Shown here: positions 10,839 through 60,068 of the stretch, piece by piece
Layout: each line of letters opens with the position of its first letter
Numbering within the stretch: position 1 is the first letter of the stretch
Origin: Flagellatimonas centrodinii
Lineage (GTDB): Bacteria; Pseudomonadota; Gammaproteobacteria; Nevskiales; Nevskiaceae
DNA length: 64,000 nucleotides
Direction of reading: 5' to 3'
Assembly: GCF_016918765.2 (NCBI RefSeq)
Contig: NZ_CP092104.1
Coordinates: forward strand, 2,108,001-2,172,000
Position numbers and translations under genes: made by a program
Notes under the pieces: model-generated
Databases searched by the model: none
Seen by the model: only the letters and a program-made list of their open reading frames with translations
Told to the model about the DNA's origin: nothing

Positions 10839-10951
10839 AGTGTTCTCCAGCAGCAATTGGGCGGGCAAGTATCGCCGATGCCGGGGCCGGCGACCCACCA
10901 GAAAGACGGGGAAACCCGGTAACCTGCCCTGCCGTCCAGCCCGCATCCGGC

Positions 10952-12477: not shown

Positions 12478-12482
12478 TACAG
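12467..12482 (+). promoter_or_regulatory. LexA (SOS) operator of recA
   Basis: CTGT (12467-12470), eight bases, ACAG (12479-12482): the CTGT-N8-ACAG consensus of the E. coli-type LexA box, 22 bases before the recA ATG. It overlaps the pncC stop TAA at 12475-12477. It implies SOS induction of recA-recX. No convincing -35 box was found around it. Confidence 0.85.
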
Positions 12483-12504
12483 GTAACCTCACTCAGGACA
12501 GACC

Positions 12505-13542
12505 ATGGACGACAACCGCAAGAAAGCCCTAGAAGCCGCCCTCTCCCAGATCGAACGCCAGTTCGGCAAGGGCGCGGTGATGCGGATGGGGGTCGACACG
12601 CGGCCGGAAGTGGAGGTGATCTCCACCGGTTCCATCACACTGGATGCCGCCCTCGGCATCGGCGGCGTGCCGCGCGGCCGCGTGGTGGAAATCTACGGCC
12701 CGGAATCATCGGGCAAGACCACCTTCGCCCTGCACGTGACCGCCGAAGCACAGAAGGCCGGCGGCGTGGCCGCCTTTGTCGATGCCGAACACGCGCTGGA
12801 TGTCGGCTATGCCGAAAAGCTCGGGGTGCAGGTGAATGACCTGCTGATCTCGCAGCCGGACACCGGCGAGCAGGCCTTGGAGATCGTCGACATGTTGGTG
12901 CGGTCCAATGCCATCGACGTGATCGTGATCGACTCGGTGGCGGCGCTGGTGCCCAAGTCGGAGTTGGAAGGTGACATGGGTGATGCCTCCGTGGGGGTGC
13001 AGGCGCGCCTCATGAGCCAGGCGCTGCGCAAGCTCACCGGTACCATCAACCGTTCGAAAACGACGGTGATCTTCATCAACCAGCTGCGCATGAAGATCGG
13101 CGTGATGATGCCGGGTCAGAGCCCGGAGACCACCACCGGCGGCAACGCGCTGAAATTCTATGCATCGGTGCGCCTCGATATCCGCCGGATCGGCGCCATC
13201 CGCAAGGGCGACGAGGTGATCGGCAATGAAACCCGCGTCAAGGTGGTCAAGAACAAGATGGCACCGCCGTTCAAGCAGGTGATCTTCGAAATCATGTATG
13301 GCGAGGGGATTTCCCGCGAAGGCGAGCTGATCGACCTCGGGGTGGAGCACAAGCTGGTCGACAAGTCCGGCGCCTGGTATGCCTACAACGGCGACAAGAT
13401 CGGTCAGGGCAAGGACAACGCCCGCAACTATCTCAAGGACCACCCCGAGATTGCCGGCGAGCTGGAGAAGACCCTGCGTGACAAGCTGGTCCCCAAGCGC
13501 AAGCGCGCGGGTGAAGAAGACGCCCCGACGCCCGCCAAGTAA
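12505..13542 (+). CDS. recA: Recombinase RecA
   Basis: 345 aa. RecA forms the ATP-dependent filament on single-stranded DNA for strand exchange and triggers LexA self-cleavage. Walker [10 protein letters not shown], Walker [13 protein letters not shown], loop L1 [21 protein letters not shown] and loop L2 [30 protein letters not shown] regions are all present, and the C-terminus is acidic. A LexA operator sits 22 bases upstream. recX overlaps its 3' end. Confidence 0.99.
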
Positions 13543-14008
13543 GCCGCTGGATGCCGCCAGCGCCCGCGAGCGGGCGCTGCGGCTGCTGGCCCGCCGCGAG
13601 CATGGCGCGCGCGAGCTGACCGCCAAGCTGCGGCAGCGTGGCGCCGATGCCGACACCGCCGAGGCCGCGGTTTCCCGCCTTGCCGAACGCGGCCTGCAGT
13701 CGGACGACCGCTATGCCGAAACGCTGGCCCGCCATCGGGCCGGGCAGGGCTATGGCCCCTTGCGGATTCGTGCCGAGCTGGCACAGGCCGGTATTGATCG
13801 CGGGCGGATCGAGCAGGTGATGGAGGACCTGCAGGTGGATTGGGCGGCGCAGGCGGCCGCCATCGTCGAGCGGCGTTTTGCGGGCGCCGCTGAGGACCGG
13901 GAGACCGGTCTGCGTGCCTGGCGTCACCTCGCCGGCCGGGGATTTTCGGCGGGTGAGATTCGGGCCGCAGTGCGCGGCTACGACCCGGACGATCCGGGCG
14001 GAAGCTGA
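13511..14008 (+). CDS. recX: Regulatory protein RecX
   Basis: 165 aa from GTG 13511 ([11 protein letters not shown]...), overlapping recA by 32 bases; no better start with a ribosome site exists downstream of the recA stop. RecX binds and caps RecA filaments. The three-helix repeat pattern is visible: [19 protein letters not shown], then [14 protein letters not shown] and [16 protein letters not shown]. Its overlap with recA fits co-expression. The exact start is uncertain. Confidence 0.88.
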
Positions 14009-14090
14009 CAGCCGCGAGGTTCCACCGGGCGGCCGTGAGTCCCGACGCGCTTTTCGCTACCCTATGCGACCTTTTTCGCTGCCCGGCCGC

Positions 14091-16700
14091 ATGAACAGCA
14101 ACGACGTCCGCGCCCGATTCCTGGCGTTTTTCGAGTCCAAGCAGCACACCCTCGTGCCCTCGGCCCCTCTGGTGCCGGGTAACGATCCGACGCTGCTGTT
14201 CACCAACGCCGGCATGGTGCCATTCAAGGACGTGTTCACTGGCCAGGACACGCGGCCGTACACGCGGGCGGCATCCAGCCAGAAATGCGTGCGCGCCGGC
14301 GGCAAACACAACGACCTCGAGAACGTCGGCTACACCGCACGGCATCACACCTTTTTCGAGATGCTGGGCAACTTCAGTTTCGGCGACTATTTCAAGGCCG
14401 ATGCCATTCCCTGGGCCTGGGAGTTCATCACCTCCCGCGATTGGCTGGGCATCGACCCCTCGCGGTTGCTGGTCACCGTCTACCACACCGACGACGAGGC
14501 CTACGGGTTGTGGAAGGACACGGTTGGTGTGCCGGCCGAGCGGATCGTCCGTATCGGTGATAACAAGGGTGCGCCTTACGCGTCGGACAACTTCTGGACC
14601 ATGGGCGAGACCGGTCCCTGCGGCCCCTGCACCGAGATCTTCTACGATCACGGCGACCACATCCCGGGTGGCCCGCCGGGCTCGCCGGACGAGGATGGCG
14701 ACCGCTGGATCGAGATCTGGAACGTGGTGTTCATGCAGTTCGAGCGGCATGCCGACGGCCGCATGACGCCGCTGCCCGCGCCCAGCGTCGACACCGGCAT
14801 GGGCCTGGAACGTATCTCGGCGCTGCTGCAAGGCACCCATGACAATTACCGCATCGACAGCTTCCGTCTGCTGATCGAGGCGATCGCCGCGCGTGCCGGA
14901 CAGGCGCCGTATGCATCGGCCTCGCAGAAGGTGATTGCCGATCACATTCGTGCCACCAGCTTTCTGCTGCTCGACGGTGTGTTGCCGGGCAATGAGGGAC
15001 GCGGTTACGTGCTGCGGCGGATCATGCGTCGCGCCATCCGTCACGGCTACAAGCTGGGGCTGAACGAGCCCTTCTTCCATGCGCTGGTGGCGCCGCTGGG
15101 CGAGGCGATGGGCGCGGGCTACCCGGAGCTGGTGGAGAAACGCGCCTGGTTGGAGCAGACCATCCGTGCCGAGGAAGATGCCTTCGCGACGACGCTCGAC
15201 AAGGGCATGAAGTTGCTCGACGAGGCGATTGCCGGGCTTGCATCCGGCGTGATCCCGGGGGCGGTGGTGTTCAAGCTGTACGACACCTACGGCTTTCCCG
15301 TTGACCTGACCGCCGACATCGCCCGTGAGCGCGCGCTGACCCTGGATCTCGACGGCTACGAGCGCGAGATGGCGGCGCAGCGCGAGCGTGCGCGCGCGGC
15401 CAGCAGTTTCAAGGCAGGCGCCAGTCTGCGGTACGAGGGTGATGCCACCTGTTTCGTCGGCTATGAGTCGTTGCGCGCCGATGCCACCGTGGTGGCGCTG
15501 TTCCGGGACGGTGAACCGGTGCCGTCGCTGCAGGCCGGCGAGCAGGGCATCGTGGTGCTCGACCGCACGCCGTTCTATGCCGAGTCCGGCGGTCAGGTGG
15601 GCGATGCCGGCCGCATCGGTACCTTTGTGGTGGACGATACTCAGAAGATCAAGGGCAGCGTGTTCGGCCACAGCGGACGGCTGGCCGAGGGCGGGCTCGC
15701 GGTGGGGGATGCGGTGACCGCCGAGGTCACCGACAGCCTGCGCCGTGCCACCATGCGCAACCACTCCGCCACCCACCTGTTGCACCGCGCTTTGCGTGAC
15801 GTGCTGGGCGAGCACGTGGCGCAAAAGGGCTCCCTGGTGGATGCCCAGCGCACCCGATTCGACTTCTCGCACCCGTCGGCGGTGACGGTGGAGGAGATCA
15901 TCGAGATCGAAAACCGCGTCAACCGTGCGGTGCTCGCCAACGTTGAGGTGGGCGCGCGGGTCATGGGCTATGACGATGCCATTGCCAGTGGTGCCATGGC
16001 GCTGTTCGGCGAGAAGTACGGGGACGAGGTGCGGGTGTTGCAGATGGGCGACTTCAGCACCGAGTTGTGCGGGGGTACCCATGTTGGCCGCACGGGCGAT
16101 ATCGGTCTGTTCAAGATCGTCTCGGAGTCGGGTGTCGCGTCCGGCATTCGTCGGGTTGAAGCAATCACCGGTGAGAACGCACTGGCCCATCTGCGCGGGC
16201 TCGACGACACGCTCAGGGCGGCCGCAGATCGGCTGCGCAGTGGCCGCGAAGACCTGATCGAGAAGATTGAGGCGCAGCTGGAGCGCGCCAAGGCGCTGGA
16301 GAAAGAGCTCGCGGCCCTCAAGGGCAAGCTCGCGGGTGCCGCCAGCGGCGACCTGGTCAGCCAGGCGCGGATGGTCGGTGACGTGCGGGTGATCGCGGCC
16401 CGAGTCGACGGTGTTGCCGGCAACGACCTGCGGGACCTGCAGGACCAGCTCAAGAACAAGCTGGGCAGCGGCGTCGTGGTGTTGGGCGCGGCGGACGGTG
16501 ACAAGGTGAGCCTGATCGCCGGCGTCACCCAGGATCTTACCCGCCGCATCAAGGCCGGTGATCTCATCAAGCATGTGGCGACCCAGGTTGGCGGCAAGGG
16601 CGGCGGACGCCCGGACATGGCGCAGGCCGGGGGGACCGATGTTGCGGCCCTGCCAGCAGCGCTGGAATCGGTTTATGCCTACGTGGAAGGCACACTCTAA
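14091..16700 (+). CDS. alaS: Alanine-tRNA ligase
   Basis: 869 aa from ATG 14091 ([17 protein letters not shown]), matching family start and length; the frame is open upstream to 13878, overlapping recX. It charges tRNA-Ala. The class II catalytic core with [16 protein letters not shown] and [17 protein letters not shown] is followed by the editing domain with zinc-type motif [12 protein letters not shown] and [16 protein letters not shown], then the C-Ala domain with a coiled segment and [15 protein letters not shown]. lysC starts immediately after its stop. Confidence 0.99.
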
Positions 16701-17927
16701 ATGGCATTGATTGTTCAGAAGTACGGTGGCACCTCGATGGGATCGGTGGAACGCATCGAGCACGTTGCCACCAAGGTGGCCGGCTTCGTTCAGCGCGGCG
16801 ATCAGGTGGTGGTGGTGGTGTCGGCGATGAGCGGCGAAACCGATCGTCTGCTGACCCTGGCGCGCTCGGTGAATCCCCGTGGCAGTCAGCGCGAGTTCGA
16901 CCAGATCGCCGCTACCGGGGAGCAGGTCACCATCGGTCTGCTGGCGCTGGCGCTTGGCAAGCTGGGGATACAGGCACGGTCCTACACCGGCTGGCAAGTG
17001 CCGATCCGTACTGATGGTGCCCACATGAAGGCCCGGATCCAGGGGATCGATCCCGACCGCCTGCGTGCCGATTGCCAGGCCGGTGTCGTGCCAGTGGTCG
17101 CCGGGTTCCAGGGCATTACCGATGCCGGTGCCGTCGCCACCTTGGGGCGCGGCGGCTCCGACACCACCGGGGTCGCCCTGGCGGCCGCGCTGGCGGCCGA
17201 CGAATGCCAGATCTATACCGATGTCGACGGTGTCTACACCACCGATCCGCGGGTCGAGCCCAAGGCGCGCCGGCTCGACCGCATCACCTTTGAGGAAATG
17301 CTGGAAATGGCCAGCCTCGGCTCCAAGGTGCTGCAGATCCGGGCCGTCGAGTTCGCCGGCAAATACAAGGTGCCACTGCGGGTGCTGTCCACGTTCAAGG
17401 ATGGCCCGGGCACGCTGATCACGTTAGAGGATTCAAAAGTGGAAGACCCCCTGATCTCCGGCATTGCCTTCAACCGCGACGAGGCCCAGCTCACCGTCAA
17501 TGGCGTGCCGGACCGGCCCGGGATCGCGGCTGCCCTGCTGGGCCCGGTCGGGGACGCCAACATCGAAGTCGACATGATCGTGCAGAACGTTGCCGCCGAC
17601 GGCAGCACCGACTTCACCTTTACCGTCCACAAGAACGACTTTGATCGGGCCACCGAGGTGATGCGCACGGTCAGCGCCGAGTTGGGCGCCAAGGGTGTCG
17701 GCGGGGCCACCGACATCGCCAAGGTGTCGGTGGTGGGGGTCGGCATGCGCAGTCATGCCGGCATTGCCAGTCAGATGTTCAAGGCGCTGGCGACTGCCGG
17801 GATCAACATCCGCATGATTTCCACCTCGGAGATCAAGATTTCGGTGGTCATCGACGAGATGTACCTCGAGTTGGCCGTGCGCACCTTGCACAAGGCCTTC
17901 GGTCTGGAGCAGCCGACCGCCGCCTGA
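16701..17927 (+). CDS. lysC: Aspartate kinase
   Basis: 408 aa, the monofunctional ACT-regulated form. It phosphorylates aspartate, the first step to lysine, threonine and methionine. The N-terminal VQKYGGTSMGSVERI, the aspartate-binding FQGITDAGAVATLGRGGSDTT and ITFEEMLEMASLGSKVLQ are typical; two C-terminal ACT domains follow (ITGVAFNRDE-like ISGIAFNRDEAQLTV and VSVVGVGMRSHAG). It begins at the base after the alaS stop. In pseudomonads csrA follows lysC; here csrA is about 41 kb away. Confidence 0.98.
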   Translation: MALIVQKYGGTSMGSVERIEHVATKVAGFVQRGDQVVVVVSAMSGETDRLLTLARSVNPRGSQREFDQIAATGEQVTIGLLALALGKLGIQARSYTGWQVPIRTDGAHMKARIQGIDPDRLRADCQAGVVPVVAGFQGITDAGAVATLGRGGSDTTGVALAAALAADECQIYTDVDGVYTTDPRVEPKARRLDRITFEEMLEMASLGSKVLQIRAVEFAGKYKVPLRVLSTFKDGPGTLITLEDSKVEDPLISGIAFNRDEAQLTVNGVPDRPGIAAALLGPVGDANIEVDMIVQNVAADGSTDFTFTVHKNDFDRATEVMRTVSAELGAKGVGGATDIAKVSVVGVGMRSHAGIASQMFKALATAGINIRMISTSEIKISVVIDEMYLELAVRTLHKAFGLEQPTAA

Positions 17928-17949
17928 GCGCCCGTTGCACGGTGCGTGT

Positions 17950-18564
17950 CTACAGGCTGCGGGTCCAGAAGGTGAGTTGCTTGTCGTCCTCTGTGTCGGC
18001 GCCGATGTCGCGCCAGCGGTAGCGACATTGCAATCCGGGTTGACGCTGGTAGCCACGCCCCTGCCAGAGTCGGTCGTTGCCGCGATAGGCGGCGGGCTTC
18101 AGGGGGTGATTGTCGTGTCGCTCCACTGCGCAGAAGGTGCTGTGGGTCAGACCCAGTGCCCGGGCATGTGCCTCCCGCAGCTCAAAAAAGGCGCGCCCGA
18201 TGCCCTGTCCGCGGGCTGTCGGAAGCAGCACCGATTCGCCGCAGTAGAACCAGGGCGCCAAGTCGATGCCGCTGGCATGAAACGGCGCCTGCATCTCCGG
18301 CGCAGCGTCGGTCAGGGGCAGGCCCGTGGTGGCGCCGACCGGACGTCCCTCACACTCCACCAGCCCGACGATCGCGCGCGGGCAGTCGCGATAGCGGGCA
18401 AGGTAGTCGCGCTCGTACCCCAGATCGCCTTCATAGAGATAGGGCCAGTCCCGGAACACGGTGATGCGCAATGCCGCCACCGCGTCGAGCCAGGGCGTCA
18501 GGGCGGCGCCGGTCAGGCGGTGCAGGTGGTAGGGGGCTGGCAGCCGGGACAGGGGTGCGGTCAT
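17950..18564 (-). CDS. GNAT family N-acetyltransferase
   Basis: 204 aa. The acetyl-CoA binding motif A is visible as GESVLLPTARGQGIGRAFFE followed by LREAHARALGLTHSTFCAVER. GNAT enzymes move an acetyl group from acetyl-CoA to an amine; the substrate here is not predictable. It converges with lysC (22-base gap) and diverges from the cytochrome b561 gene. No partner gene hints at its role. Confidence 0.82.
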   Translation of the reverse strand: MTAPLSRLPAPYHLHRLTGAALTPWLDAVAALRITVFRDWPYLYEGDLGYERDYLARYRDCPRAIVGLVECEGRPVGATTGLPLTDAAPEMQAPFHASGIDLAPWFYCGESVLLPTARGQGIGRAFFELREAHARALGLTHSTFCAVERHDNHPLKPAAYRGNDRLWQGRGYQRQPGLQCRYRWRDIGADTEDDKQLTFWTRSL

Positions 18565-18575
18565 AAGTCAGAATA

Positions 18576-18615
18576 TTTGAATGAAGATGTCAAAACAGTT
18601 CGCTTGTTTGAATGA
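18576..18615. promoter_or_regulatory. Direct repeats in the divergent GNAT / cytochrome b561 promoter region
   Basis: TTTGAATGA occurs at 18576-18584 and again at 18607-18615, 31 bases apart, close to three helical turns. Between them lies TGTCAA (18588-18593), which reads TTGACA, a perfect -35 box, on the minus strand. The spacing suggests a regulator binding two sites on one face of DNA. No regulator is identified. Confidence 0.35.
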
Positions 18616-18658
18616 CTGAGCCCCCGTACGCTGCAGCAGGTGTTCCCGGAATCCGTTC

Positions 18659-19213
18659 ATGAATACCCCGACCCCGCGCTACACCATGATCGCGATAACC
18701 CTGCATTGGGGTATCGCCCTGTTGATCTTCGGTGGCTTCGGTCTCGGTCAATACATGACCGAGCTCGCATTTTCGCCGACCAAGCTGAAATTGTTCAGCT
18801 GGCACAAATGGGTGGGGGTCACGGTCTTTGCGCTGGTGATGTTGCGGGTGCTGTGGCGGCTGTCGCACGTACCACCCGCGCTGCCGCCGGAAACCCCGGT
18901 CTGGCAGCGTCGAGTGGCCGGGGCGACCCACGGATTGCTGTACGGGCTGATGGTGTTGATTCCGCTCAGCGGATGGTTGTACTCGTCGGCGTCCGGGTTT
19001 CAGACCGTGTACTTTGGGGTGTTGCCGCTGCCGGACCTGCTGGCCCGTGACGAGCACCTGGCAGGATGGCTGAAGTGGGCACATGTGTCGCTGAACAATC
19101 TGTTGGCCGGCTTGGTGATACTGCACGTGGGTGCAGCGCTGAAGCATCAGTTTGTTGATCGTGATGGCCTGCTGTGGCGCATGCTGCCGGGTCGTTCCAC
19201 TACCGGAGAATGA
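18659..19213 (+). CDS. Cytochrome b561
   Basis: 184 aa, inner-membrane di-heme cytochrome of the bacterial b561 family. Four hydrophobic segments carry the four expected heme-ligand histidines: AITLHWGIALLIF, FSWHKWVGVTVF, GATHGLLYGLMVLIPLSGW and GLVILHVGAALKHQF. Members pass electrons from quinol to periplasmic acceptors or superoxide. The next two genes encode YceI proteins, a common partnership. Confidence 0.93.
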   Translation: MNTPTPRYTMIAITLHWGIALLIFGGFGLGQYMTELAFSPTKLKLFSWHKWVGVTVFALVMLRVLWRLSHVPPALPPETPVWQRRVAGATHGLLYGLMVLIPLSGWLYSSASGFQTVYFGVLPLPDLLARDEHLAGWLKWAHVSLNNLLAGLVILHVGAALKHQFVDRDGLLWRMLPGRSTTGE

Positions 19214-19214
19214 G

Positions 19215-19784
19215 ATGGTTTCGCCTTTTTCCTTTCACCGCGCCCGCTGGGGCGCTGCGCTGGGTGTGCTGCTGACGGCGCTGTCGCTCCAGGCCAGCAC
19301 CACCGCGGTGGTGTCGGGTCGCAGTGAAGTGGTGGCGACCTTCAAGCAGATGGGGGTGTCGGTGGAAGGCCGCTTTCAGCGGTTCGAGGGCGACATCCGG
19401 TTCGACCCGGCCGCCCCCGAAGCGGCCTCGGCGATGCTGGTGATCGACACCGCCAGCTTCGATCTCGGCCTGCCCGACTACAACGCAGAAGTACGCAAGC
19501 CCGAATGGTTCGACAGTGCTGCGCATCCGCAGGCCCGTTTCAGCGCTGACGGACTGAAGCCGCTCGGCGATCAGCGCTTCCGTGCGGACGGGACGCTGAC
19601 GCTGAAGGGCAAAACGACCCCGCTCTCGGCCGACCTGACGGTGACCGAGGGCGACGGTTATCGACGGTTCGAGGGCGAAGTGACGATCGACCGCACCCAT
19701 TACGGGATTGGTGACGACGCCTGGGACGGCGTTGTCGATGACGCCGTCCGGGTGCATTTCCGGATCGCCCAAGCGTTTGACTGA
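19215..19784 (+). CDS. YceI family periplasmic protein (first copy)
   Basis: 189 aa from ATG 19215, directly after the cytochrome b561 stop. A signal peptide (ALGVLLTALSLQAST) is present. YceI proteins are lipocalin-like beta barrels that bind polyisoprenoid chains such as quinones or their precursors. The middle of the protein has the family pattern MLVIDTASFDLGLPDYNAEV, HPQARFSADGLKPLGDQRF and LKGKTTPLSADLTV. It is shorter at the conserved N-terminus than the copy that follows. Confidence 0.85.
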   Translation: MVSPFSFHRARWGAALGVLLTALSLQASTTAVVSGRSEVVATFKQMGVSVEGRFQRFEGDIRFDPAAPEAASAMLVIDTASFDLGLPDYNAEVRKPEWFDSAAHPQARFSADGLKPLGDQRFRADGTLTLKGKTTPLSADLTVTEGDGYRRFEGEVTIDRTHYGIGDDAWDGVVDDAVRVHFRIAQAFD

Positions 19785-19832
19785 GCCGGCACCCATCCTC
19801 AATTCCCCGCTTCCCCCCGATAACCGGAGTCC

Positions 19833-20411
19833 ATGATGAAAACCCTTTTCTCGATCGTGCCCGCTGCCGCCCTGCTGAGCCTCAGTGGTGTTGCCCTGGC
19901 CGCCCCCGTGAACTACACCATCGAGCCGTCGCACACCTATCCCAGCTTCGAAGCGCCGCACATGGGCATCTCGTGGTGGCGGGGCAAGTTCAACACCACC
20001 AGCGGCACCGTGGTGCTCGACCGGGAGGCCCGCACCGGCGAGGTGAACATCACGATTGATGCCGCCAGTGTGGATTTCGGTCACGACAAGATGAACGAGC
20101 ATGCGCGCGATGCCGACTTCTTCAATGTCGCCAAGTACCCCACCATCAGCTATCGCGGCACCATCGAGTTCGATGATGGTGAGCCGGACGAGGTCAAGGG
20201 CGAACTGACGCTGCTCGGCGAGACCCGGCCCGTGGTCCTGGAATTCGAAAGCTTCAAGTGCATCGAGCACCCGTTCTTCAAAAAGGAAGTCTGTGGGGCC
20301 GATCTCGAGGCCGAGTTCAATCGCGCCGATTTCGGCATGAGCAAGTACGCCGAGGGGGCCGCCGGTGAGGTGAAACTGGCGATCCAGGTCGAGGCCTTGC
20401 GCAACGATTGA
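19833..20411 (+). CDS. YceI family periplasmic protein (second copy)
   Basis: 192 aa; the start could be either of two adjacent ATG codons (19833 or 19836), the second better spaced from CGGAG. The signal peptide ends in GVALAAP. Family core: YTIEPSHTYPSFEAPHMG, VNITIDAASVDFGHDKMNEH and FFNVAKYPTISYRG. It probably binds an isoprenoid ligand in the periplasm. The two YceI genes 48 bases apart differ clearly in sequence, so they are old paralogues rather than a recent duplication. Confidence 0.93.
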   Translation: MMKTLFSIVPAAALLSLSGVALAAPVNYTIEPSHTYPSFEAPHMGISWWRGKFNTTSGTVVLDREARTGEVNITIDAASVDFGHDKMNEHARDADFFNVAKYPTISYRGTIEFDDGEPDEVKGELTLLGETRPVVLEFESFKCIEHPFFKKEVCGADLEAEFNRADFGMSKYAEGAAGEVKLAIQVEALRND

Positions 20412-20480
20412 GGTGAATTTACCCCGGCGGGTGCGCGCGTGGATTCGCCCGCGCGCGCACCGCTGTGCCACTATCGGGGG

Positions 20481-21701
20481 ATGACCGCTCCGGCCCTGCA
20501 TGCTCCCCGAGTGAACCGACGCTTCACCCGGCACATTGATGCGGGCGAGGTGCTCTTTGATGTCGGCGAGCGGGGCCACGAGGCATTCATCGTCGCTGCG
20601 GGCGCCGTGGAGATCGTCGGCACGGTCGGCGGCGAGCGGCGCCGGTTGGCGCGACTGGGTCCCAATGAGCTGTTCGGCGAAATGGCCCTGATGGGGGACC
20701 AGACACGAACTGCGCAGGCCATCGCCTGCGAGCCAACAACCGTCTACGTCATCCCCCATGACACCTTCTCGGGCTGTCTCCACCGCGCCGATCCCCTGCT
20801 GCGTCACCTGCTGCGGCTGACCATTCTCCGCGCCCGTGCGGCCCTGCGCGACGATCTTGCGTCCCAGTTGACCCCGCCCGATTACGAGACCCTGCAGGAC
20901 GATCACCTCGATGCCGAGCGCGAGGTGGTGCTGCAGCGTCTGTTGATCGAGCAGGATCTGGCGGAAGCGCTTGATCGCGACGAATTCTCCCTGCATTACC
21001 AGCCGATCCTGCGCTTGGCCGATGGCGACGTCACGGGTTTCGAGGCGCTGCTGCGTTGGCGGCATCCCGCCCATGGCGCCGTGTCGCCCGCGGTATTCGT
21101 GCCGGTGGCCGAGGCCAGTGGTCAGATCGTGCCGATGGGGCACTGGATTATTGACACCGCCGTGGCTGCCGCCGCCCGGATTGCGGCGCGGCCGGGGCCA
21201 ACGCTGACGGTGGCGCTCAACCTGTCGATCCGGCAGTTCGATGACCCGCAGCTGTTTCCCACGATCGAGGCTGCCCTGGCCCGGCACCAGCTGGCGCCGG
21301 ACCGCCTGAAGCTGGAGATCACCGAATCGTTGGTGATGAGCAACTTCGATGCCAGCCGTGACCTTCTGCGGCGCTGCAAGGATCGCGGGATCGGCTTGTC
21401 GGTTGATGATTTCGGGACCGGGTATTCGTCCCTTTCCTACCTTCACCAGCTTCCGGTCGACACGCTCAAGCTCGACCGCTCGTTCCTCAGTGACGTGCTG
21501 ACCAACCCGGCGTCGCTGAAGATCGTCCGGGCAGTGGCGCGGCTGGCCGCAGATCTCGGGATGCAGACCGTGGCGGAGGGGGTGGAGACCACCGAGCAGG
21601 CGGAAGCCTTGAAGGCCATCGGTATCGACTGCGCCCAGGGTTTTCTCTACTCCCGGCCGGCGCCCCTTGATCAGGTGCTTGAAAGTCTGCAAAGCGCTTG
21701 A
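20481..21701 (+). CDS. Cyclic-nucleotide-binding domain fused to EAL phosphodiesterase
   Basis: 406 aa from ATG 20481. Residues about 20-125 form a CRP-like cyclic nucleotide-binding barrel; the phosphate-binding cassette reads FGEMALMGDQTRTAQA, with the Glu and Arg that contact cAMP or cGMP in the family. Residues about 160-400 form an EAL domain with all catalytic signatures: GFEALLRWR, NLSIRQF, LKLEITES, DDFGTGYSSLSYL and AEGVETTEQ. Hydrolysis of c-di-GMP to pGpG is therefore predicted, possibly gated by a cyclic mononucleotide. No membrane segment is seen. The infC promoter overlaps its stop. Confidence 0.9.
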   Translation: MTAPALHAPRVNRRFTRHIDAGEVLFDVGERGHEAFIVAAGAVEIVGTVGGERRRLARLGPNELFGEMALMGDQTRTAQAIACEPTTVYVIPHDTFSGCLHRADPLLRHLLRLTILRARAALRDDLASQLTPPDYETLQDDHLDAEREVVLQRLLIEQDLAEALDRDEFSLHYQPILRLADGDVTGFEALLRWRHPAHGAVSPAVFVPVAEASGQIVPMGHWIIDTAVAAAARIAARPGPTLTVALNLSIRQFDDPQLFPTIEAALARHQLAPDRLKLEITESLVMSNFDASRDLLRRCKDRGIGLSVDDFGTGYSSLSYLHQLPVDTLKLDRSFLSDVLTNPASLKIVRAVARLAADLGMQTVAEGVETTEQAEALKAIGIDCAQGFLYSRPAPLDQVLESLQSA

Positions 21702-38996: not shown

Positions 38997-39029
38997 CGGC
39001 CTGTGCATCTCGACACAAGGAGAACCCGC

Positions 39030-40823
39030 ATGTGCGGATTCGCCGGTGAGCGCCGATTTGACGGCCGCGCCGCCTCAGTAGAATCAGTCGCCGCGATGAG
39101 CGCGGCCGTGGCCCGTCGCGGGCCGGACGCCGAGGGCGTCTATGCCCAGGGCCCGTTGGCGGTCGGACATCGCCGCCTCAAGATCATGGATCTCAGCGAG
39201 CGCGCCCAGCAGCCGATGATCGACCCGCTGTTGGGCCTGGGCGTGGTCTTCAACGGCGCCCTGTACAACCATCCCGAGCTTCGCGCTGAACTGCGGGCGG
39301 ACGGCTATCACTTCCACTCGGAAGGCGATACCGAAGTCATCCTCAAGGCCTGGCATCGCTGGGGCGAGGACTGCGTGCAGCACTTCCAGGGCATGTTTGC
39401 GTTCGCGCTCTGGGAGCGTGATAGCGGGCGGCTGGTGCTGGCCCGCGACCGCCTCGGGATCAAGCCGCTTTACTACAGTCGCGATGGCCGGCGTCTTCGG
39501 TTCGCCTCGACACTGCCGGCGCTGCTCGCCGGCGGCGATATCAGCAGCGAGATCGATCCGGTGGCGCTGCATCATTACCTCCACTTCCACGCAGTGGTAC
39601 CGGCCCCGCACACCCTGTTGGCCGGCGTGCGCAAGCTGGCGCCCGGCACGCTGCAGGTGATCGAGCCGGACGGACAGGTCCGGGAGCGTTGTTATTGGTC
39701 CCTCTCGTTTGAGCGCAATGCAGACGACACCCGGCGCAGCTTCGACGACTGGCGCGATGAAGTACTGGCGGCCACGCGCCTGGCCGTCCATCGCCGGCTG
39801 GTCTCGGATCAGCCTGTGGGGGCGTTGCTCTCGGGGGGGGTCGATTCCAGTCTGATCGTCGGACTGATGGCCGAGAACGGGGCCAACCTGCGGACCTACT
39901 CCATCGGTTTCGAGGACGTCGGCAGCGAAAAGGGCAATGAGTTCGAATACTCCGATTGCGTCGCCCAGCACTTTGCGACCCAGCACCAGCAGATCCGTAT
40001 CGACAGCCGCAATTTGCTCCGCCGTCTGCCGGAAGCCATCGCCGCCATGAGTGAACCCATGGTGTCGCATGACTGCGTAGCGTTCTACCTGCTGTCCGAG
40101 GCGGTGTCCGAGCACAGCAAGGTGGTGCAATCGGGGCAGGGCGCCGATGAGGTTTTTGGTGGCTATCACTGGTACCCGCCGTTGCTCGACAGCGCTGACG
40201 GGGCTGGCGACTATGCCCGCGGCTTCTGTGACCGCGATCAGGCCGAATATCGGCAGGTGGTGTCACCGGCACTGGCCTGTGCCGATGACGTCAGCCGCGA
40301 CTTCATCGCCCGTCACTTCGGTGCGCCCGGTGCCACGCGTCCGGTGGATCAGGCGCTGCGGATGGATACCACGGTAATGCTGGTCGATGACCCGGTGAAG
40401 CGGGTCGACAACATGACGATGGCTTTCGGGCTCGAAGCCCGGGTGCCGTTTCTTGACCACGAACTGGTCGAGCTGGCAGCCCGCATTCCCGCCGAGCACA
40501 AGCTGGCCCCGCATCTGGGCGAAGCCGGCGGCAAGCACGTGCTCAAGGAAGCGGCGCGGGCAGTGATCCCCGCGAAGGTGATTGATCGCCCCAAAGGTTA
40601 CTTTCCGGTACCGGCGCTGAAATATCTGCGAGGGGACTTTCTCGACTACACCCGGGATCTGCTCCGCAATGACGCGGCCCGTCGCCGCGGGTTGTTTCAG
40701 TCGCCCTATGTTGACACCCTGCTGGCCGACCCGGAGGCGCACATCACGCCGCTGCGCGGGTCCAAGCTCTGGCAGCTGGCCTTGCTCGAAGGGTGGCTGC
40801 AAACCCACGTCGATAGCCACTGA
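39030..40823 (+). CDS. asnO: N-acetylglutaminylglutamine amidotransferase
   Basis: 597 aa from ATG 39030, which places the nucleophile Cys at position 2 (MCGFAGERRFDG); AAGGAG lies just upstream. It is an asparagine-synthase-like protein: N-terminal glutamine amidohydrolase domain with VVFNGALYNHPELRAELRA, C-terminal ATP pyrophosphatase domain with GALLSGGVDSSLIVGLMAE. It amidates N-acetylglutaminylglutamine to NAGGN, an osmoprotectant dipeptide amide. The following two genes complete the known trio. Confidence 0.95.
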   Translation: MCGFAGERRFDGRAASVESVAAMSAAVARRGPDAEGVYAQGPLAVGHRRLKIMDLSERAQQPMIDPLLGLGVVFNGALYNHPELRAELRADGYHFHSEGDTEVILKAWHRWGEDCVQHFQGMFAFALWERDSGRLVLARDRLGIKPLYYSRDGRRLRFASTLPALLAGGDISSEIDPVALHHYLHFHAVVPAPHTLLAGVRKLAPGTLQVIEPDGQVRERCYWSLSFERNADDTRRSFDDWRDEVLAATRLAVHRRLVSDQPVGALLSGGVDSSLIVGLMAENGANLRTYSIGFEDVGSEKGNEFEYSDCVAQHFATQHQQIRIDSRNLLRRLPEAIAAMSEPMVSHDCVAFYLLSEAVSEHSKVVQSGQGADEVFGGYHWYPPLLDSADGAGDYARGFCDRDQAEYRQVVSPALACADDVSRDFIARHFGAPGATRPVDQALRMDTTVMLVDDPVKRVDNMTMAFGLEARVPFLDHELVELAARIPAEHKLAPHLGEAGGKHVLKEAARAVIPAKVIDRPKGYFPVPALKYLRGDFLDYTRDLLRNDAARRRGLFQSPYVDTLLADPEAHITPLRGSKLWQLALLEGWLQTHVDSH

Positions 40824-40837
40824 GACAGGGACGCGTC

Positions 40838-42613
40838 ATGACCACCCCTTCACGTCGACATCATCGCGCCGACGCGCGTTTGGCCCGTCGTACTGGTGTC
40901 AGTCTCGACCACTGGGCGCAGCAGGCCGGTGATCCGGCGCTGCGGCCGGACAAGCGGGACGTCAGCATCGACTGCGGCTGGGGGCATCTGCTGTTGGCGC
41001 AGACCTACGACGATGCCGCCACCGTGGCGCGCCACCTGGATGCCGAGTCGACCGGGCGTCGCAACATCGCCATCTACGTGCGTGACCCCCATGTCATTCT
41101 GGCGCAGCAACCGCAGAAGCTGTTTCTGGACCCCAGCCATACGTTTCGTTTGTGGCTCAGCAGCTGGCAGCCACGACGCCCGCGGCGGACCAGCTTCACC
41201 CTGCGACGCTTGCGCACCAAGGCCGATGCCCAGGCGATCCACCGGATTTATCAGGCACGGGGCATGGTGCCCGCCGCCCCCGAATTCGTGTGGAAGAACC
41301 GGGCCGGACGACTGCTGACCTACTTTGTTGCCGAGGATGACCGCACTGGCCAGGTGGTGGGCACGGTGATGGGTGTCGATCATGTACAGGCCTTTGACGA
41401 CCCCGAACAGGGCTCCAGCCTGTGGTGTCTCGCCGTCGATCCGACAGCGCACGCGCCGGGGGTGGGTCAGGCATTGGTCAACACCCTGGCCGCGCACTAT
41501 CAGGCGCGGGGGCGTGCCTTCATGGACCTCTCGGTCATGCACGACAACGATCAGGCCATCGGGCTTTACGAGAAAATGGGCTTCCAGCGGGTGCCGGTGT
41601 TTGCGGTGAAGTGCAAGAACGCCATCAACGAATCGCTGTTCGTGCCCCACGCGCCTGCCGGCGAACTCAACCCTTACGCCCAGATCATTGCCGATGAGGC
41701 GCTGCGGCGGGGGATCCGGGTGGATGTACTGGATGCCGAGAACGGTTACCTGCGGATGACCCTCGGCGCGCGCTCACTGGTCTGCCGTGAGTCCCTGTCG
41801 GAGCTCACCAGTGCCGTCGCCATGAGCCGCTGCCAGGACAAGCGGGTCACCTCGCGTCTGCTGGCTGGCGCCGGTCTGCGGGTGCCCGGTCAGCGAGTGG
41901 CCGATGGCAGCGCCGACGATGTGACCTTCTTGCGAAAGCTCGGGGCGGTGGTGGTGAAGCCGGCAGACGGCGAGCAGGGGGCCGGCATCAGTGTGGATGT
42001 GCGGACCAGCCGCGAACTGCGCACCGCCATCAAGCAGGCGCACCGTGTCCACGAAACGGCCTTGATCGAAGAATACTGCCCCGGTGATGACTTGCGGATC
42101 GTGGTGATCGGCTTTGAAGTGGTGGCGGCGGCGTTGCGGAAGCCGCCGGAGGTGGTGGGTGACGGCCAGCTGCAGGTGGGCGAGCTGATCGAAAAGCTCT
42201 CGCGGCGTCGGCAGGCGGCGACCCAGGGCGAATCACGGATCCCGATCGACCGAGAGACCGAGCGCTGCATCAAGCGCGATGGCTACACCATGGATACGGT
42301 GCTGCCCGCTGGCACCGTTCTGCGAGTGCGCAAGACGGCCAACCTGCACACCGGTGGTACCCTTCACGATGTCACCGATCGACTTCATCCAACGCTTCGC
42401 GATGCGGCGGTTCGGGCAGCGCGAACCCTGGAAATCCCCGTCACCGGTCTCGATTTCCTGGTGACGGCGCCCGACGCGCCGGACTACGTGATCGTCGAGG
42501 CCAACGAACGTCCCGGGCTCGCCAACCACGAGCCACAACCGACGGCACAGCGGTTTGTCGACCTGCTGTTCCCGCTCACCAGCCCGCCGGAGGACCCCCG
42601 TGCGCAAGCTTGA
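40838..42613 (+). CDS. ngg: N-acetylglutaminylglutamine synthetase (GNAT-ATP-grasp fusion)
   Basis: 591 aa. N-terminal GNAT acetyltransferase (residues about 100-270: LWCLAVDPTAHAPGVGQALVNTLAAHY, ...ENMGF-like YEKMGFQRVPVFAVK) joined to an ATP-grasp ligase (about 290-590: GAVVVKPADGEQGAGISVDV, LIEEYCPGDDLRIVVIGFEVVAAALRKPP, DFLVTAPDAPDYVIVEANERPGL). One protein thus acetylates glutamine and couples a second glutamine. It lies 14 bases after the amidotransferase gene and overlaps the peptidase gene. Confidence 0.95.
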   Translation: MTTPSRRHHRADARLARRTGVSLDHWAQQAGDPALRPDKRDVSIDCGWGHLLLAQTYDDAATVARHLDAESTGRRNIAIYVRDPHVILAQQPQKLFLDPSHTFRLWLSSWQPRRPRRTSFTLRRLRTKADAQAIHRIYQARGMVPAAPEFVWKNRAGRLLTYFVAEDDRTGQVVGTVMGVDHVQAFDDPEQGSSLWCLAVDPTAHAPGVGQALVNTLAAHYQARGRAFMDLSVMHDNDQAIGLYEKMGFQRVPVFAVKCKNAINESLFVPHAPAGELNPYAQIIADEALRRGIRVDVLDAENGYLRMTLGARSLVCRESLSELTSAVAMSRCQDKRVTSRLLAGAGLRVPGQRVADGSADDVTFLRKLGAVVVKPADGEQGAGISVDVRTSRELRTAIKQAHRVHETALIEEYCPGDDLRIVVIGFEVVAAALRKPPEVVGDGQLQVGELIEKLSRRRQAATQGESRIPIDRETERCIKRDGYTMDTVLPAGTVLRVRKTANLHTGGTLHDVTDRLHPTLRDAAVRAARTLEIPVTGLDFLVTAPDAPDYVIVEANERPGLANHEPQPTAQRFVDLLFPLTSPPEDPRAQA

Positions 42614-43766
42614 AATTGACAACGATTACATTCGCCAGGTGCTACTTGAGCTACTGGCCATTCCCAGCCCGGTCGGCTTTACCGACGAGGTTGTGCACTA
42701 CACCTGCGGCAAGCTGCGGGAGCTGGGGATTCCCTTCGAGCTGACCCGGCGAGGGGCCATCCGCGCCACCATCAAGGGTGAGACCGATCGGCCGGCCTGT
42801 GCGGTGGTGGCGCACCTCGACACCCTCGGTGCCAACGTGCGGGCGCTGAAGGACAACGGCCGCGTCAGTCTGCTCCCTATCGGCACCTGGTCCAGCCGGT
42901 TTGCCGAAGGCGGCCGGGTATCGCTGTTCACCGACACCAGTGTGCTGCGCGGGACGATCCTGCCCCTGAAGGCTTCCGGCCATGCCTTCAATGAAGGGGT
43001 CGACCACCAGCCCATCAGCTGGGACCACATCGAGCTGCGGATCGACGAGTTCTCAGAGACCCGGGAGGATCTGGTGCGTCTGGGTGTGAACATCGGCGAT
43101 TTCATTGCGGTGGATCCGCAGCCGGAAATCACCGAATCGGGTTACGTATCGTCTCGCCATCTCGACGACAAGGCCGGCGTGGCTGCGCTGTTGGCCGCCT
43201 GCAAGGCAATCGTCGAGAGCGATCTGTCGCTGCCAGTGTATTTCCATCCGATGTTCACGGTGACCGAAGAGGTGGGGTTCGGGGCCTCGGCGATTCTCGA
43301 CGAGCGGATCAGCGAGATGATCGGGATCGACATCGCCATCCCGGCGTCGGGGCAGAACTCGCGCGAACGCGGCGTCACGATTGCCATCGCCGACTCGTCG
43401 GGGCCGTTCGACTACCACCTGACCCGCAAGCTGCTGAATCTTTGCCACGACCATGGGGTTGACCATCAGCGCGACGTCTTCCCGTATTACTTTTCCGACT
43501 CGGCTGCGGCGCTGCGGGCCGGATTCGATATCCGTCACGCGCTGATCGGCTTCGGCGCCGATTCCTCGCATGGCTGGGAGCGGACCCACCTGTCGTCGCT
43601 GACGTCGGTGGCCGAGCTGTTGACCCTGTATGCGCAGAATGGCCCGGTGGTTGCGCGCGATACCAAGCCCATCGGGCCGCTCGAAGGTTTTCCGCACCAG
43701 GTCGAGCCGGCGCTGTTGGACCATGAGGTCACCTCACTGCCGCGGCCCAAGGAATTCCTCGAATAA
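42600..43766 (+). CDS. M42-family peptidase of the NAGGN osmolyte system
   Basis: 388 aa from GTG 42600, six bases after GGAGG and overlapping the synthetase gene by 14 bases. A dinuclear-metal aminopeptidase fold: VVAHLDTLGANVRAL, SRHLDDKAGVAALLAACK and VTEEVGFGASAI hold expected metal ligands and the catalytic Glu; ALIGFGADSSHGWERTH has the late His. Members of the trio probably process or recycle NAGGN, but the reaction is not settled. Confidence 0.92.
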   Translation: MRKLEIDNDYIRQVLLELLAIPSPVGFTDEVVHYTCGKLRELGIPFELTRRGAIRATIKGETDRPACAVVAHLDTLGANVRALKDNGRVSLLPIGTWSSRFAEGGRVSLFTDTSVLRGTILPLKASGHAFNEGVDHQPISWDHIELRIDEFSETREDLVRLGVNIGDFIAVDPQPEITESGYVSSRHLDDKAGVAALLAACKAIVESDLSLPVYFHPMFTVTEEVGFGASAILDERISEMIGIDIAIPASGQNSRERGVTIAIADSSGPFDYHLTRKLLNLCHDHGVDHQRDVFPYYFSDSAAALRAGFDIRHALIGFGADSSHGWERTHLSSLTSVAELLTLYAQNGPVVARDTKPIGPLEGFPHQVEPALLDHEVTSLPRPKEFLE

Positions 43767-43821
43767 GCGGGGCAGCTTCGCCTTTTGGCAGGACTCGGGT
43801 AAGCTTGCGGCCTGAATGAAG

Positions 43822-43876
43822 TGTCGCGCGAGAGACCGTCACCCGGTGACGGCACCGAAGGCGCAAACCGCCCGGG
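43822..43876 (+). repeat. Exact 55-bp copy of the first half of glycine aptamer I
   Basis: Identical to 44000-44054, 178 bases upstream of it. It has the P1 5' strand GTGTCGCGC, the GAGAGACC segment and CACCGAAGGCGCAAACC, but not the CTCAGGTA and GCGCGACAC segments that would close the aptamer. It therefore cannot fold as a full glycine sensor on its own. Confidence 0.9.
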
Positions 43877-43883
43877 TGAGACG

Positions 43884-43908
43884 GCATCGAAGCATGTCTT
43901 CGATGCCA
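43884..43908 (+). other. Perfect hairpin after the partial aptamer copy
   Basis: GGCATCGAAG (43884-43893), loop CATGT, CTTCGATGCC (43899-43908): 10-bp stem without a following T run. It replaces the sequence that would complete the aptamer. Function unknown. Confidence 0.55.
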
Positions 43909-43999
43909 TCGAACGACCCGCCAGGAGGGCGGGGCCGGGGCTGGGAAGGACGCTGAGTGTGCGCCATGGATGGCGAAGTTGACGTAAGGTATTGATAAC

Positions 44000-44173
44000 G
44001 TGTCGCGCGAGAGACCGTCACCCGGTGACGGCACCGAAGGCGCAAACCGCCCGGAATCGCTCAGGTACCCAGGAGCGCGACACCGCAGCAAAACTCTGGA
44101 GAGCGGCCGCCTCGAGCGGTCCACCGATGGGGCAGGCGCAGTGCGCCCGAACTCTCAGGTACCAAGGACAGAG
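44000..44173 (+). promoter_or_regulatory. Tandem glycine riboswitch controlling the gcv operon
   Basis: Aptamer I spans 44000-44083 with a perfect 9-bp P1 (GTGTCGCGC with GCGCGACAC), CCGAAGGCGCAAACC and GCTCAGGTACCCAGGAG. Aptamer II spans about 44094-44173 with CTCTG/CAGAG as P1, CCGATGGGGCAGG and ACTCTCAGGTACCAAGGACAG. These are the conserved parts of glycine riboswitches. gcvT begins 38 bases later; such switches turn on glycine degradation when glycine is high. The expression platform is not obvious: neither a T-run terminator nor a clear ribosome-site sequestrator is seen. TTGACG at 43979 is a possible -35 box, without a good -10. Confidence 0.95.
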
Positions 44174-44211
44174 GGGCGGGTCGCCACAACCCATCGAGTT
44201 TGCGCACCCGC

Positions 44212-45294
44212 ATGCTGAAAAAGACCGCCCTGCACCCCGAACACCTGCGCCTCGGCGCCCGCCTGGTCGATTTTGCTGGCTGGGACATGCCAATCCAGTA
44301 CGGATCGCAACTGGAGGAGCACCATGCCGTCCGGCGGCACGCGGGGATGTTCGACGTCGCCCACATGTCGGCCATCGATATCGAGGGTGCCGACGCGACG
44401 GCCTTCCTGCGGCGGATGCTGGCCAATGACGTCGCCAAGCTGACGATCATCGGCAAGGCGCTCTACAGCACCCTGCTGCGGGAGGATGGCGGTGTCATTG
44501 ACGATCTCATCGTCTACCGCACCGGCGAACAGCGCTACCGTCTGGTGGTCAATGCCGGCACCACCGACAAGGACCTGACCTGGCTGCGGTCGCAGTCGGC
44601 GGGGCACGCCCTCACGCTTCATCATCGTCAAGACCTCGGCATCCTCGCTGTTCAGGGGCCGCAGGCCCGGTCGATCGTCGCCCCGCTGCTGCCCGAGGGC
44701 CTGCCTGCCGCTGTTGCCGCGCTGAAACCGTTCTCGGCCGCTTGGGTGGACGACACCTTTGTCGGACGCACCGGTTACACCGGCGAAGATGGCGTCGAAG
44801 TCATCCTTCCGCATGCGGAGTTGGTCACCCTGTGGCGCGGGCTGGAAACCGCCGGGGTTCGACCCTGTGGTCTCGGTGCACGCGACACCTTGCGCCTCGA
44901 GGCCGGCATGAACCTGTACGGCCAGGACATGGACGAAACCGTTCATCCCCTGGCGGCTGGACTCGGGTGGACCATCGCCTGGTCGCCGGAAGATCGACTG
45001 TTCGTCGGCCGTGCCGCGCTGGAGGCCCTCCGTGGAACCGACCATTCCCACCTGATCGGACTGGTGCTGGAGGGGCGTGGGGTGCTGCGTGCACACATGC
45101 CGCTGCGCTTTGCCAACGGCGTCACCGGCGAGATCACCAGCGGCGGTTTCGCGCCGACGATGAAGGCTTCGATCGCGCTGGCGCGCGTCGGCGGCGGGTT
45201 TTCCGGTGCCTGTGAGGTGGAAATCCGCGGACAATGGCAGCCGGTGCGGGTGGTGAAGCCCCCCTTCGTTCGCCATGGCCAAGTGCTGGTCTGA
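44212..45294 (+). CDS. gcvT: Glycine cleavage system T protein
   Basis: 360 aa from ATG 44212; a TTG at 44200 in frame is the only near alternative and neither has a clear Shine-Dalgarno site. Aminomethyltransferase moves the methylene from the H-protein-bound intermediate to tetrahydrofolate and frees ammonia. Matches: [53 protein letters not shown] and [22 protein letters not shown]. First gene after the glycine riboswitch. Confidence 0.98.
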
Positions 45295-47126: not shown

Positions 47127-47137
47127 AGGAGATGCGC

Positions 47138-47638
47138 ATGTCGACCGTAACCCTCAAAGGCAATCCGGTTCAGGTGTTTGGCGAGCTTCCCGCCAAGGGG
47201 GCGGATGCCCCCGGTTTTCGGCTGGTGGGGAGTGACCTGCGCGATCTGTCGCTGCACGACTTCGCCGGCAAGCGCAAGGTGCTGAACATCTTCCCCAGCG
47301 TCGATACACCGACGTGTGCCACCAGCGTTCGCAAGTTCAACGAGCGGGCTGCCGGGCTGGCGGATACCGTGGTCCTCTGTGTATCGGCTGACCTGCCCTT
47401 CGCGCAGGCCCGATTCTGCGGTGCCGAAGGTCTCAGCAACGTCGTCACCGCATCATTGATGCGCGGACGCAACTTTGCCAAGGACTATGGCGTGCTGGTT
47501 GAAACCGGACCCTTGGCAGGTCTTACCGCGCGCGCTGTCGTGGTGCTTGACACCGACAATCGGGTGATTCATGCCGAACTGGTCGCCGAGATCGGCGACG
47601 AGCCGGACTATGACGCCGCGTTGTCGGCGCTGGGCTGA
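47138..47638 (+). CDS. tpx: Thiol peroxidase Tpx
   Basis: 166 aa from ATG 47138, six bases after AAGGAG. An atypical 2-Cys peroxiredoxin that reduces lipid and other peroxides using thioredoxin. The peroxidatic Cys lies in [17 protein letters not shown] and the resolving Cys in [18 protein letters not shown]. It stands inside the gcv operon, 11 bases after gcvPA and 5 bases before gcvPB, so it should be under glycine riboswitch control; this placement is unusual. Confidence 0.97.
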
Positions 47639-59487: not shown

Positions 59488-59685
59488 ATGCTGATCCTGA
59501 CGCGGAGAGTGGGTGAGACCGTCATCATCGGTGGCGGTATCACGATCACCGTCCTCGACATCAAGGGTGGACAGGTCCGGTTGGGTGTGATGGCACCGAA
59601 GGAAGTGCCGGTGCATCGCGGTGAACTGGTGGAACGCGAGCGTGAACGCGCGGCCGCGGCCGCGGCCAACAAGCCCGAAGAATAA
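59488..59685 (+). CDS. csrA: Carbon storage regulator CsrA/RsmA
   Basis: 65 aa from ATG 59488, the exact family start [27 protein letters not shown] just upstream is the ribosome site. CsrA binds GGA motifs in mRNA leaders and controls translation of metabolism, biofilm and motility genes. [17 protein letters not shown] carries the RNA-binding strand. The 250-base gap upstream (59238-59487) contains no gene that I can support. tRNA genes follow, as in Pseudomonas, but alaS-lysC are 41 kb away. Confidence 0.98.
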
Positions 59686-59766: not shown

Positions 59767-59843
59767 GCGCCCGTAGCTCAGCTGGATAGAGCACCAGGCT
59801 ACGAACTTGGGGGTCGGAGGTTCGAATCCTTCCGGGCGCACCA
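59767..59843 (+). tRNA. tRNA-Arg (anticodon ACG), copy 1
   Basis: 77 nt with CCA. Acceptor GCGCCCG/CGGGCGC; anticodon stem CCAGG/CTTGG around CTACGAA, anticodon ACG (A34 edited to inosine). Confidence 0.97.
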
Positions 59844-59878
59844 CTGTTGCAGTGAGGGAGTTTCCCTCGTGTCGTCCC

Positions 59879-59970
59879 GGAGAGTTGGCCGAGTGGACGA
59901 AGGCGCTCCCCTGCTAAGGGAGTATAGGGTTTATCCCCTATCGAGGGTTCGAATCCCTCACTCTCCGCCA
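59879..59970 (+). tRNA. tRNA-Ser (anticodon GCT)
   Basis: 92 nt including CCA, with the long variable arm of class II tRNAs (ATAGGGTTTATCCCCTAT). Acceptor GGAGAGT/ACTCTCC; anticodon stem CTCCC/GGGAG around CTGCTAA, anticodon GCT. Confidence 0.97.
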
Positions 59971-59991
59971 GTTTTTTCAGGCAGATCGTGT

Positions 59992-60068
59992 GGGCTCGTA
60001 GCTCAGCTGGATAGAGCACCAGGCTACGAACTTGGGGGTCGGGAGTTCGAATCTCTCCGAGCCCACCA
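59992..60068 (+). tRNA. tRNA-Arg (anticodon ACG), copy 2
   Basis: 77 nt with CCA. D arm, anticodon arm and variable loop are the same as copy 1 (59767), but acceptor (GGGCTCG/CGAGCCC) and T stem differ with compensating changes, so both fold fully. Confidence 0.97.

Follow-up and report, generated by a model that had tools for sequence, protein, structure and literature searches.

Integrative elements such as ICEs and prophages can restore a gene end, with the displaced native end lying on one side and a substitute end on the other, and MITEs are short, non-coding elements present in many copies. The glycine riboswitch (Rfam family RF00504) is found in tandem form upstream of gcvT. A ghost aptamer, as it is described in PMC6944388, is an adjacent stem structure that scaffolds the aptamer. 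REP/BIME elements of RAYT transposases are dispersed palindromic sequences known from Gammaproteobacteria, and in the account of PMC2817692 the REP head reads GT(A/G)G and the palindrome is short. The ANGGAN hexaloop, with variable N positions, is a known CsrA/RsmE site (PMC7652899), and the RNAs that sequester CsrA or RsmA (CsrB, RsmY/Z and RsmU) carry GGA-loop hairpins in series. RsmU is described in PMC7694677 as a 3'-UTR RsmA sponge that is processed from one mRNA and limited to Xanthomonas.

The window, a stretch of 64,000 nt from the genome of Flagellatimonas centrodinii (G000), contains a tandem glycine riboswitch followed by gcvT, gcvH, gcvPA, a redoxin gene and gcvPB (Table 1). The redoxin gene, of the redoxin/AhpC-TSA family by Pfam, lies at 47132-47638, between gcvPA and gcvPB. 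On the other side of the riboswitch, positions 39003-43766 are occupied by successive genes for an asparagine synthase, a GNAT/ATP-grasp protein and an M42 peptidase (Pfam), which presumably form an NAGGN-type osmolyte operon.

Aptamer I of the riboswitch is a true glycine aptamer, far above the RF00504 cut-off of 32 bits, and its 5' part is present twice. Positions 43821-43875 and 44000-44054 form an exact direct repeat (55/55 nt) with a start-to-start shift of 179 nt, and when the comparison is extended from 43816/43995, 58 of 60 nt are identical (97%). The repeat comprises the 5' P1 strand, P2 and part of P3. An earlier note on this DNA had reported a perfect 55-nt copy, and the copy is real, with its start one position off in that note (43821 is the first base). 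In a genome search with 43767-44000, the second copy was the sole match apart from the query itself (E 6.7e-22), so the repeat is not due to chance. The P1 5' strand GTGTCGCGC stands at 43821-43829 and again at 44000-44008, with its partner GCGCGACAC at 44075-44083, as the note had described; within 3.2 kb of + strand on either side of and including this site (locus L001), the partner has no second occurrence. In the upstream copy the 3' P1 strand is missing and the score stays below the RF00504 cut-off, so it does not qualify as an aptamer. It is followed by another sequence, called X here, and it is no ghost aptamer in the sense of PMC6944388 either. The note had overlooked that the 124 nt between the two copies belong to a dispersed repeat family, of which X is the member in the window. 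We consider it probable that X, a dispersed structured element, inserted here and that the half aptamer represents the left target which it displaced, with the intact riboswitch on the right; the half aptamer itself is most likely a by-product.

Table 1. Features around the half-aptamer repeat in the window (a raised dot marks the left junction of X; the first two names follow the preferred reading)
Feature	Position	Strand	Basis
Putative displaced left target copy, 5' part of glycine aptamer I, ends in GG	43821..43875	+	Repeat comparison; RF00504 21.8 bits
Dispersed element X, probably inserted, 124 nt, left end GG·GTGAG	43876..43999	+	Covariance-model and nhmmer matches
HP1, hairpin closed by GTGAG/CGAAC, two G-A mismatches	43876..43914	+	Fold; covariation over 50 copies
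HP2, loop AGGAG: GGA present, one base short of ANGGAN	43917..43933	+	Folds; alignment
HP3, CGCC-AUGGAU-GGCG, full ANGGAN loop in letters	43962..43975	+	Sequence letters; fold of copy plus X
Intact glycine aptamer I (right-hand target copy and its 3' half)	43996..44087	+	RF00504 58.8 bits
Aptamer II of the tandem riboswitch, ends approximate	44093..44185	+	By eye (GGAGAG ... CTCTCAGGTACCAAGGACAG); no separate Rfam call
gcvT, first gene of the gcv operon, mechanical ORF start	44200..45294	+	Pfam GCV_T, GCV_T_C

Copies of X share one plan: the left end GG·GTGAG, the covarying hairpin HP1, the letters GAACG, and then the hairpins HP2 and HP3, often with GGA loops. The three hairpins follow each other in fixed order, and the length across copies is about 105-170 nt. 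The window copy belongs to this family by its head, its GAACG and the complete letters of HP3, and its HP2 loop reads AGGAG. Its HP3 hairpin forms in the fold of the copy plus X and is missing from the minimum-energy fold of X alone. The left end is conserved, with the junction GG·GTGA in 85 of 91 full-length copies, a set which omits diverged copies such as those at mutL in genus g3. In HP1 the sequence varies and the pairing is kept, with double changes at all 15 pairs among 50 copies. The covariation score of the whole structure was 0.536 versus 0.139 in shuffles, none of 500 shuffles was as high, and the score was at most 0.096 when the structure was slid.

The spacers of G000, of a relative in the same genus (G001) and of a member of another genus in the same family (G012) align mutually, and a search with the G001 spacer gave matches in 48 of 58 family genomes, often several per genome. 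The covariance model R1 was built from 50 copies of X, four of them from G000. It matched the window at 43876-43974 with 67.5 bits, the window copy being one of the 50 training copies, and nhmmer gave the window X 38.1 bits with an HMM grown from seeds that also included it. In the covariance-model search, 49 of 58 family genomes contained X, as did 24 of 229 genomes sampled from the class, G000 being one of the 24. G000 itself had at least 34 matches at E<=0.01, with 150 of 6616 candidates scored. At least 120 stretches were found by a pattern scan of named genomes. Among the matches listed, Lysobacter, Luteimonas, Pseudoxanthomonas, Solimonas and Nevskia account for a large part, and a few belong to Xanthomonas, Stenotrophomonas, Alloalcanivorax, Pseudomonas, Halorhodospira, Sedimenticola and others. 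One match (L211) lies on a 6.5-kb contig labelled Verrucomicrobia, which may reflect transfer or a misassigned contig.

No Rfam family reached its cut-off on X (one chance match, 7.3 bits versus 70). One query against phages gave no match, and one query for plasmids gave a single Xanthomonas sacchari record. A literature search by terms and by sequence letters, with most subscription papers outside its scope, returned no description of X; three papers contain one X sequence string, and by title their subjects are unrelated. Two side observations concern the neighbourhood of X copies. A second dispersed repeat of G000 (TGTCATCGCGAGG ... CTCGCAATGACA) adjoins several of them, and X is inserted into that repeat at L259-L261 (X left end). 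In one X copy before ddl (L100:1240-1360), the gene upstream apparently ends in what is the left arm of HP1, as would be left by inverted copying.

The hairpin loops of X were compared with the CsrA site. A first count gave ANGGA in both hairpin regions of 81 of 91 full copies, and this count is biased, because the search pattern demanded A.GGA in HP2 and had fetched 59 of 92 full-length copies. Among left-intact copies not fetched by the motif, ANGGAN on at least three pairs was present in HP2 in 29 of 38, in HP3 in 21 of 38 and in both in 20 of 38, and the same windows of the flanks gave 1 and 1. Both loops were present in one of 11 left-intact copies that are not full-length. Counts of the N positions were confined to copies that fit a regular expression demanding A.GGA, which were 173 and 158 of 211. 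In the window copy, HP3 has a loop that is canonical in its letters, and HP2 has the GGA without an N. From these loops X is a candidate CsrA-binding element in part of its family. It resembles CsrB, RsmY/Z and RsmU in its serial GGA-loop hairpins, and many copies lie directly after stop codons; it differs from RsmU, as that RNA is described, in being dispersed, multi-copy and present in many genera. G000 has four CsrA genes, one of them in the window (59488-59640), just upstream of tRNA genes (59767-60065).

The arrangement found in the window recurs in the same aptamer of other genomes. A search with RF00504 gave a match in 55 of 61 genomes. Upstream of its riboswitch, G001 carries two additional partial aptamers, contained in two tandem 199-nt units with 99% identity, and G012 has one exact 76-nt copy (76/76) 252 nt upstream. 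G002, also of the same genus, has a riboswitch with neither a copy nor X beside it, and X is present elsewhere in its genome. Over 47 riboswitch loci (L003-L049, some of which share a genome), the spacer element was present in two (L033 and L035), with the window additional. A Porticoccaceae MAG, UBA12305 (L220), which was found via the spacer pattern and not via the riboswitch, also has X in the same aptamer with the same half-copy. The earlier note had named absence of the copy from all relatives as an outcome that would speak against its reading, and these genomes show that the copy is not absent from all of them. The insertion point follows CTCAGG in G001, G012 and L220, and CCGCCCGG in the window; from this different context, the window insertion is either independent or has since changed.

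By eye, the displaced partial aptamers of these relatives lack the 3' P1 strand (L033:2522-2606 and 2721-2805, L035:2316-2406, L220:3806-3901). They nevertheless exceed the RF00504 cut-off of 32, with 35, 37.5, 34 and 33.6 bits in G001, G012 and L220. This is an annotation trap, as displaced half aptamers that pass the Rfam cut-off would be labelled as extra glycine riboswitches. In G012 there are eleven matches to the glycine aptamer, and four of these lie together in about 10 kb on contig C6 (about 10376-20807).

The same form is present in protein genes: a truncated left target ending mostly in GG, then X, then a complete target. Going by their translated ends, the genes concerned include mutL, entered at QIAAGE in several genomes, as well as ddl, ruvA, ubiG and mtnC, and also ftsZ ends on the opposite strand. 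No riboswitch is involved at these genes, which leaves a reading of the copy as present to tune the switch without support. Because the same form is found at unrelated genes, the half aptamer is one case of a general insertion footprint.

How regular this footprint is was measured on copies deduplicated by context (241 to 213) or by the last 30 nt of the left flank, L (to 100); the window copy lies outside the set of 100, its HMM match beginning at model position 18. The target copy was scored as the local match between the last 60 nt before X and the right flank. A score of at least 14 was reached in 23 of 100 left-intact copies and in 3 of 2000 shuffles, and these 23 include three or more cases of X inside X. 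The other 77 of 100 stayed below the threshold, so the duplication is not a constant product. In a cruder control, where L was compared with right flanks taken from other copies, the 95% point was at 12 and the maximum at 25 (n=295), the maximum being due to targets such as mutL that recur. Of 94 copies, 50 had their longest upstream sense frame (60 codons or more) in the frame of the TGA of X, and 17 and 15 had it in the other two frames. When frames open for at least 100 codons were counted instead, the numbers were 55, 44 and 17 of 94, a less clear lead for the TGA frame. It thus seems that genes with glycine as the last residue, for which no target copy is needed, end at many of the X copies. 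Tandem X units were also found at several other loci.

An ordinary target-site duplication, in which staggered cuts copy 20-75 nt or more of the left target, all within one genome, is a possible alternative, which we regard as distinctly less likely than the displacement of a target by X. The form L-X-L'R, where L' is the copy of L on the right, is what it would leave, the variable copy length is compatible with it, and in the riboswitch cases the two copies are identical or nearly so, as in the 76/76 copy of G012. In protein genes, however, the copies differ mostly at synonymous positions. We counted 28 synonymous and 14 non-synonymous differences between L and L' over 12 alignable coding cases, of which five are mutL and not all are independent events. 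About three quarters of the differences would be expected to be non-synonymous in a decaying local duplicate, and under a random-substitution null the mean was 10.5 synonymous, with 28 reached in none of 5000 trials. Several target copies, by eye, begin at a start codon or a stop codon, and most copies of X have no duplication above the threshold, which also stands against a simple duplication.

The mutL loci bear on the same question. X lies within 500 nt upstream of mutL in 8 of 28 readable loci, from a set of 30 in which G000 and G001 were unreadable by script. In four of the five X-bearing mutL genomes of genus g3 (G063, G066, G062 and G069), the left copy resembles by eye the native mutL start of X-free relatives (G065, G004 and G072), and a different type is found to the right of X. 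G031, the fifth genome, has the right-hand type in both copies. The native look of the left copies and the foreign look of the right ones, together with the synonymous excess, suggest that X brings in a substitute for the gene end and so displaces the native end. In the riboswitch cases the near identity of the copies means that native and imported ends are indistinguishable, and that either the event is recent or the copies were homogenised.

If the half aptamer is indeed a displaced left target, an X of about 124 nt would have entered glycine aptamer I just after a GG, with the truncated target to its left and the complete target to its right, so that gcv would keep a whole riboswitch. X and a substitute gene end of its own (H) may move together as one unit (X + H). 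This unit would probably integrate either by way of homology in H or after closing into a circle at GG·GTGAG, and the old gene end would be displaced to the left. A circle integrating through a homologous end could yield the footprint and the tandem units as well. Where X is transcribed with the gene, it might add CsrA-type hairpins to the leader or the 3' UTR.

The earlier note had seen in the copy a regulatory decoy, with the upstream P1 strand competing for the single P1 partner and so retuning the riboswitch, and this we judge to be improbable. The two copies are identical and the arrangement recurs in four genomes, as a decoy would lead one to expect. In equilibrium folding, a transcript starting 0-5 nt before the copy had a probability of 0.92 for the decoy P1 and 0.00 for the true P1. 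For starts 15 and 30 nt before the copy the decoy P1 was 0.66 and 0.28, with the true P1 at 0.00 in both, but a start 54 nt upstream gave 0.00 for the decoy and 0.91 for the true P1, and at 80 nt the true P1 was 0.90, again with no decoy. Because these answers depend on the start, folding decides nothing on the decoy; a consensus scan of 43600-44210 gave neither a sigma-70-like promoter nor a terminator. With four starts each, the decoy P1 was at most 0.01 in G001 (inner copy folded) and at most 0.06 in G012. By eye, a P2 pair is lost in the outermost copy of G001, and the copy-plus-X form is also found in protein genes. Competition for P1 thus stands as thermodynamically possible in G000, depends on the start, and is near absent in the two relatives; as a tuning reading the decoy is weak, and as a conserved function it is unsupported by the folding models.

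It is also quite improbable that X is a REP-like palindrome mobilised by a RAYT (Y1) transposase. A hairpin beside a short conserved head and the occurrence of REPs in Gammaproteobacteria would agree with it. Judged by the GT(A/G)G head, the short palindrome and a cognate RAYT, however, X was not accepted as a REP element: X was at none of 15 Y1 transposase loci, and no Y1 match was found in G000, nor in the X-bearing G003 and G023, to the extent that draft assemblies do not hide genes. With the same reservation for drafts, 9 of 14 genomes, including some rich in X, had no reverse transcriptase, and integron integrase above the cut-off was missing from the X-bearing G000, G023, G165 and G288. 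Of the 14 genomes tested, 8 had an integron integrase above the cut-off, and X is present in 7 of these 8; since the model gave matches under the cut-off in each of 14 controls, only matches over it were counted. No enzyme family among these three tracks X throughout. A likeness between the GTGAG/CGAAC stem base and integron attC boxes was considered and dropped as weak.

A simple tandem duplication by slippage in the riboswitch leader, with X as old leader sequence, is very unlikely: the two 199-nt units of G001 and the tandem X units elsewhere would fit it, but X recurs as a dispersed repeat, its left junction is conserved, it has copies at unrelated genes, and the riboswitch of G002 has no X or copy adjoining it.

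Compared with the known elements, X is alike to REP/BIME elements in being dispersed, palindromic and found in Gammaproteobacteria, but it differs from them in its greater length, its three ordered hairpins, its GTGAG head and the lack of a RAYT association at the loci searched. With MITEs it shares the short, non-coding and multi-copy nature, whereas its target copy is long and in genes it often restores the gene end; no autonomous partner element turned up in the searches made here. The probable displaced native end on one side and substitute end on the other are as in ICEs and prophages, but at about 0.1-0.2 kb X is too short for an integrase gene.

What appeared as an oddity of one riboswitch is an entry point to a dispersed element that edits conserved gene ends, and the general finding is this dispersed element with its unusual target-restoring footprint. 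We tentatively suggest, as one possibility, that X represents an undescribed class of integrase-less mobile cassette, which would cross species with a substitute gene end, displace the native end, often supply the stop codon, and so provide core genes across Gammaproteobacteria (the gcv riboswitch, mutL, ruvA, ftsZ and others) with scattered CsrA-type hairpins in their leaders and 3' UTRs. X may wire some conserved genes into the CsrA network, and it may spread CsrA sites.
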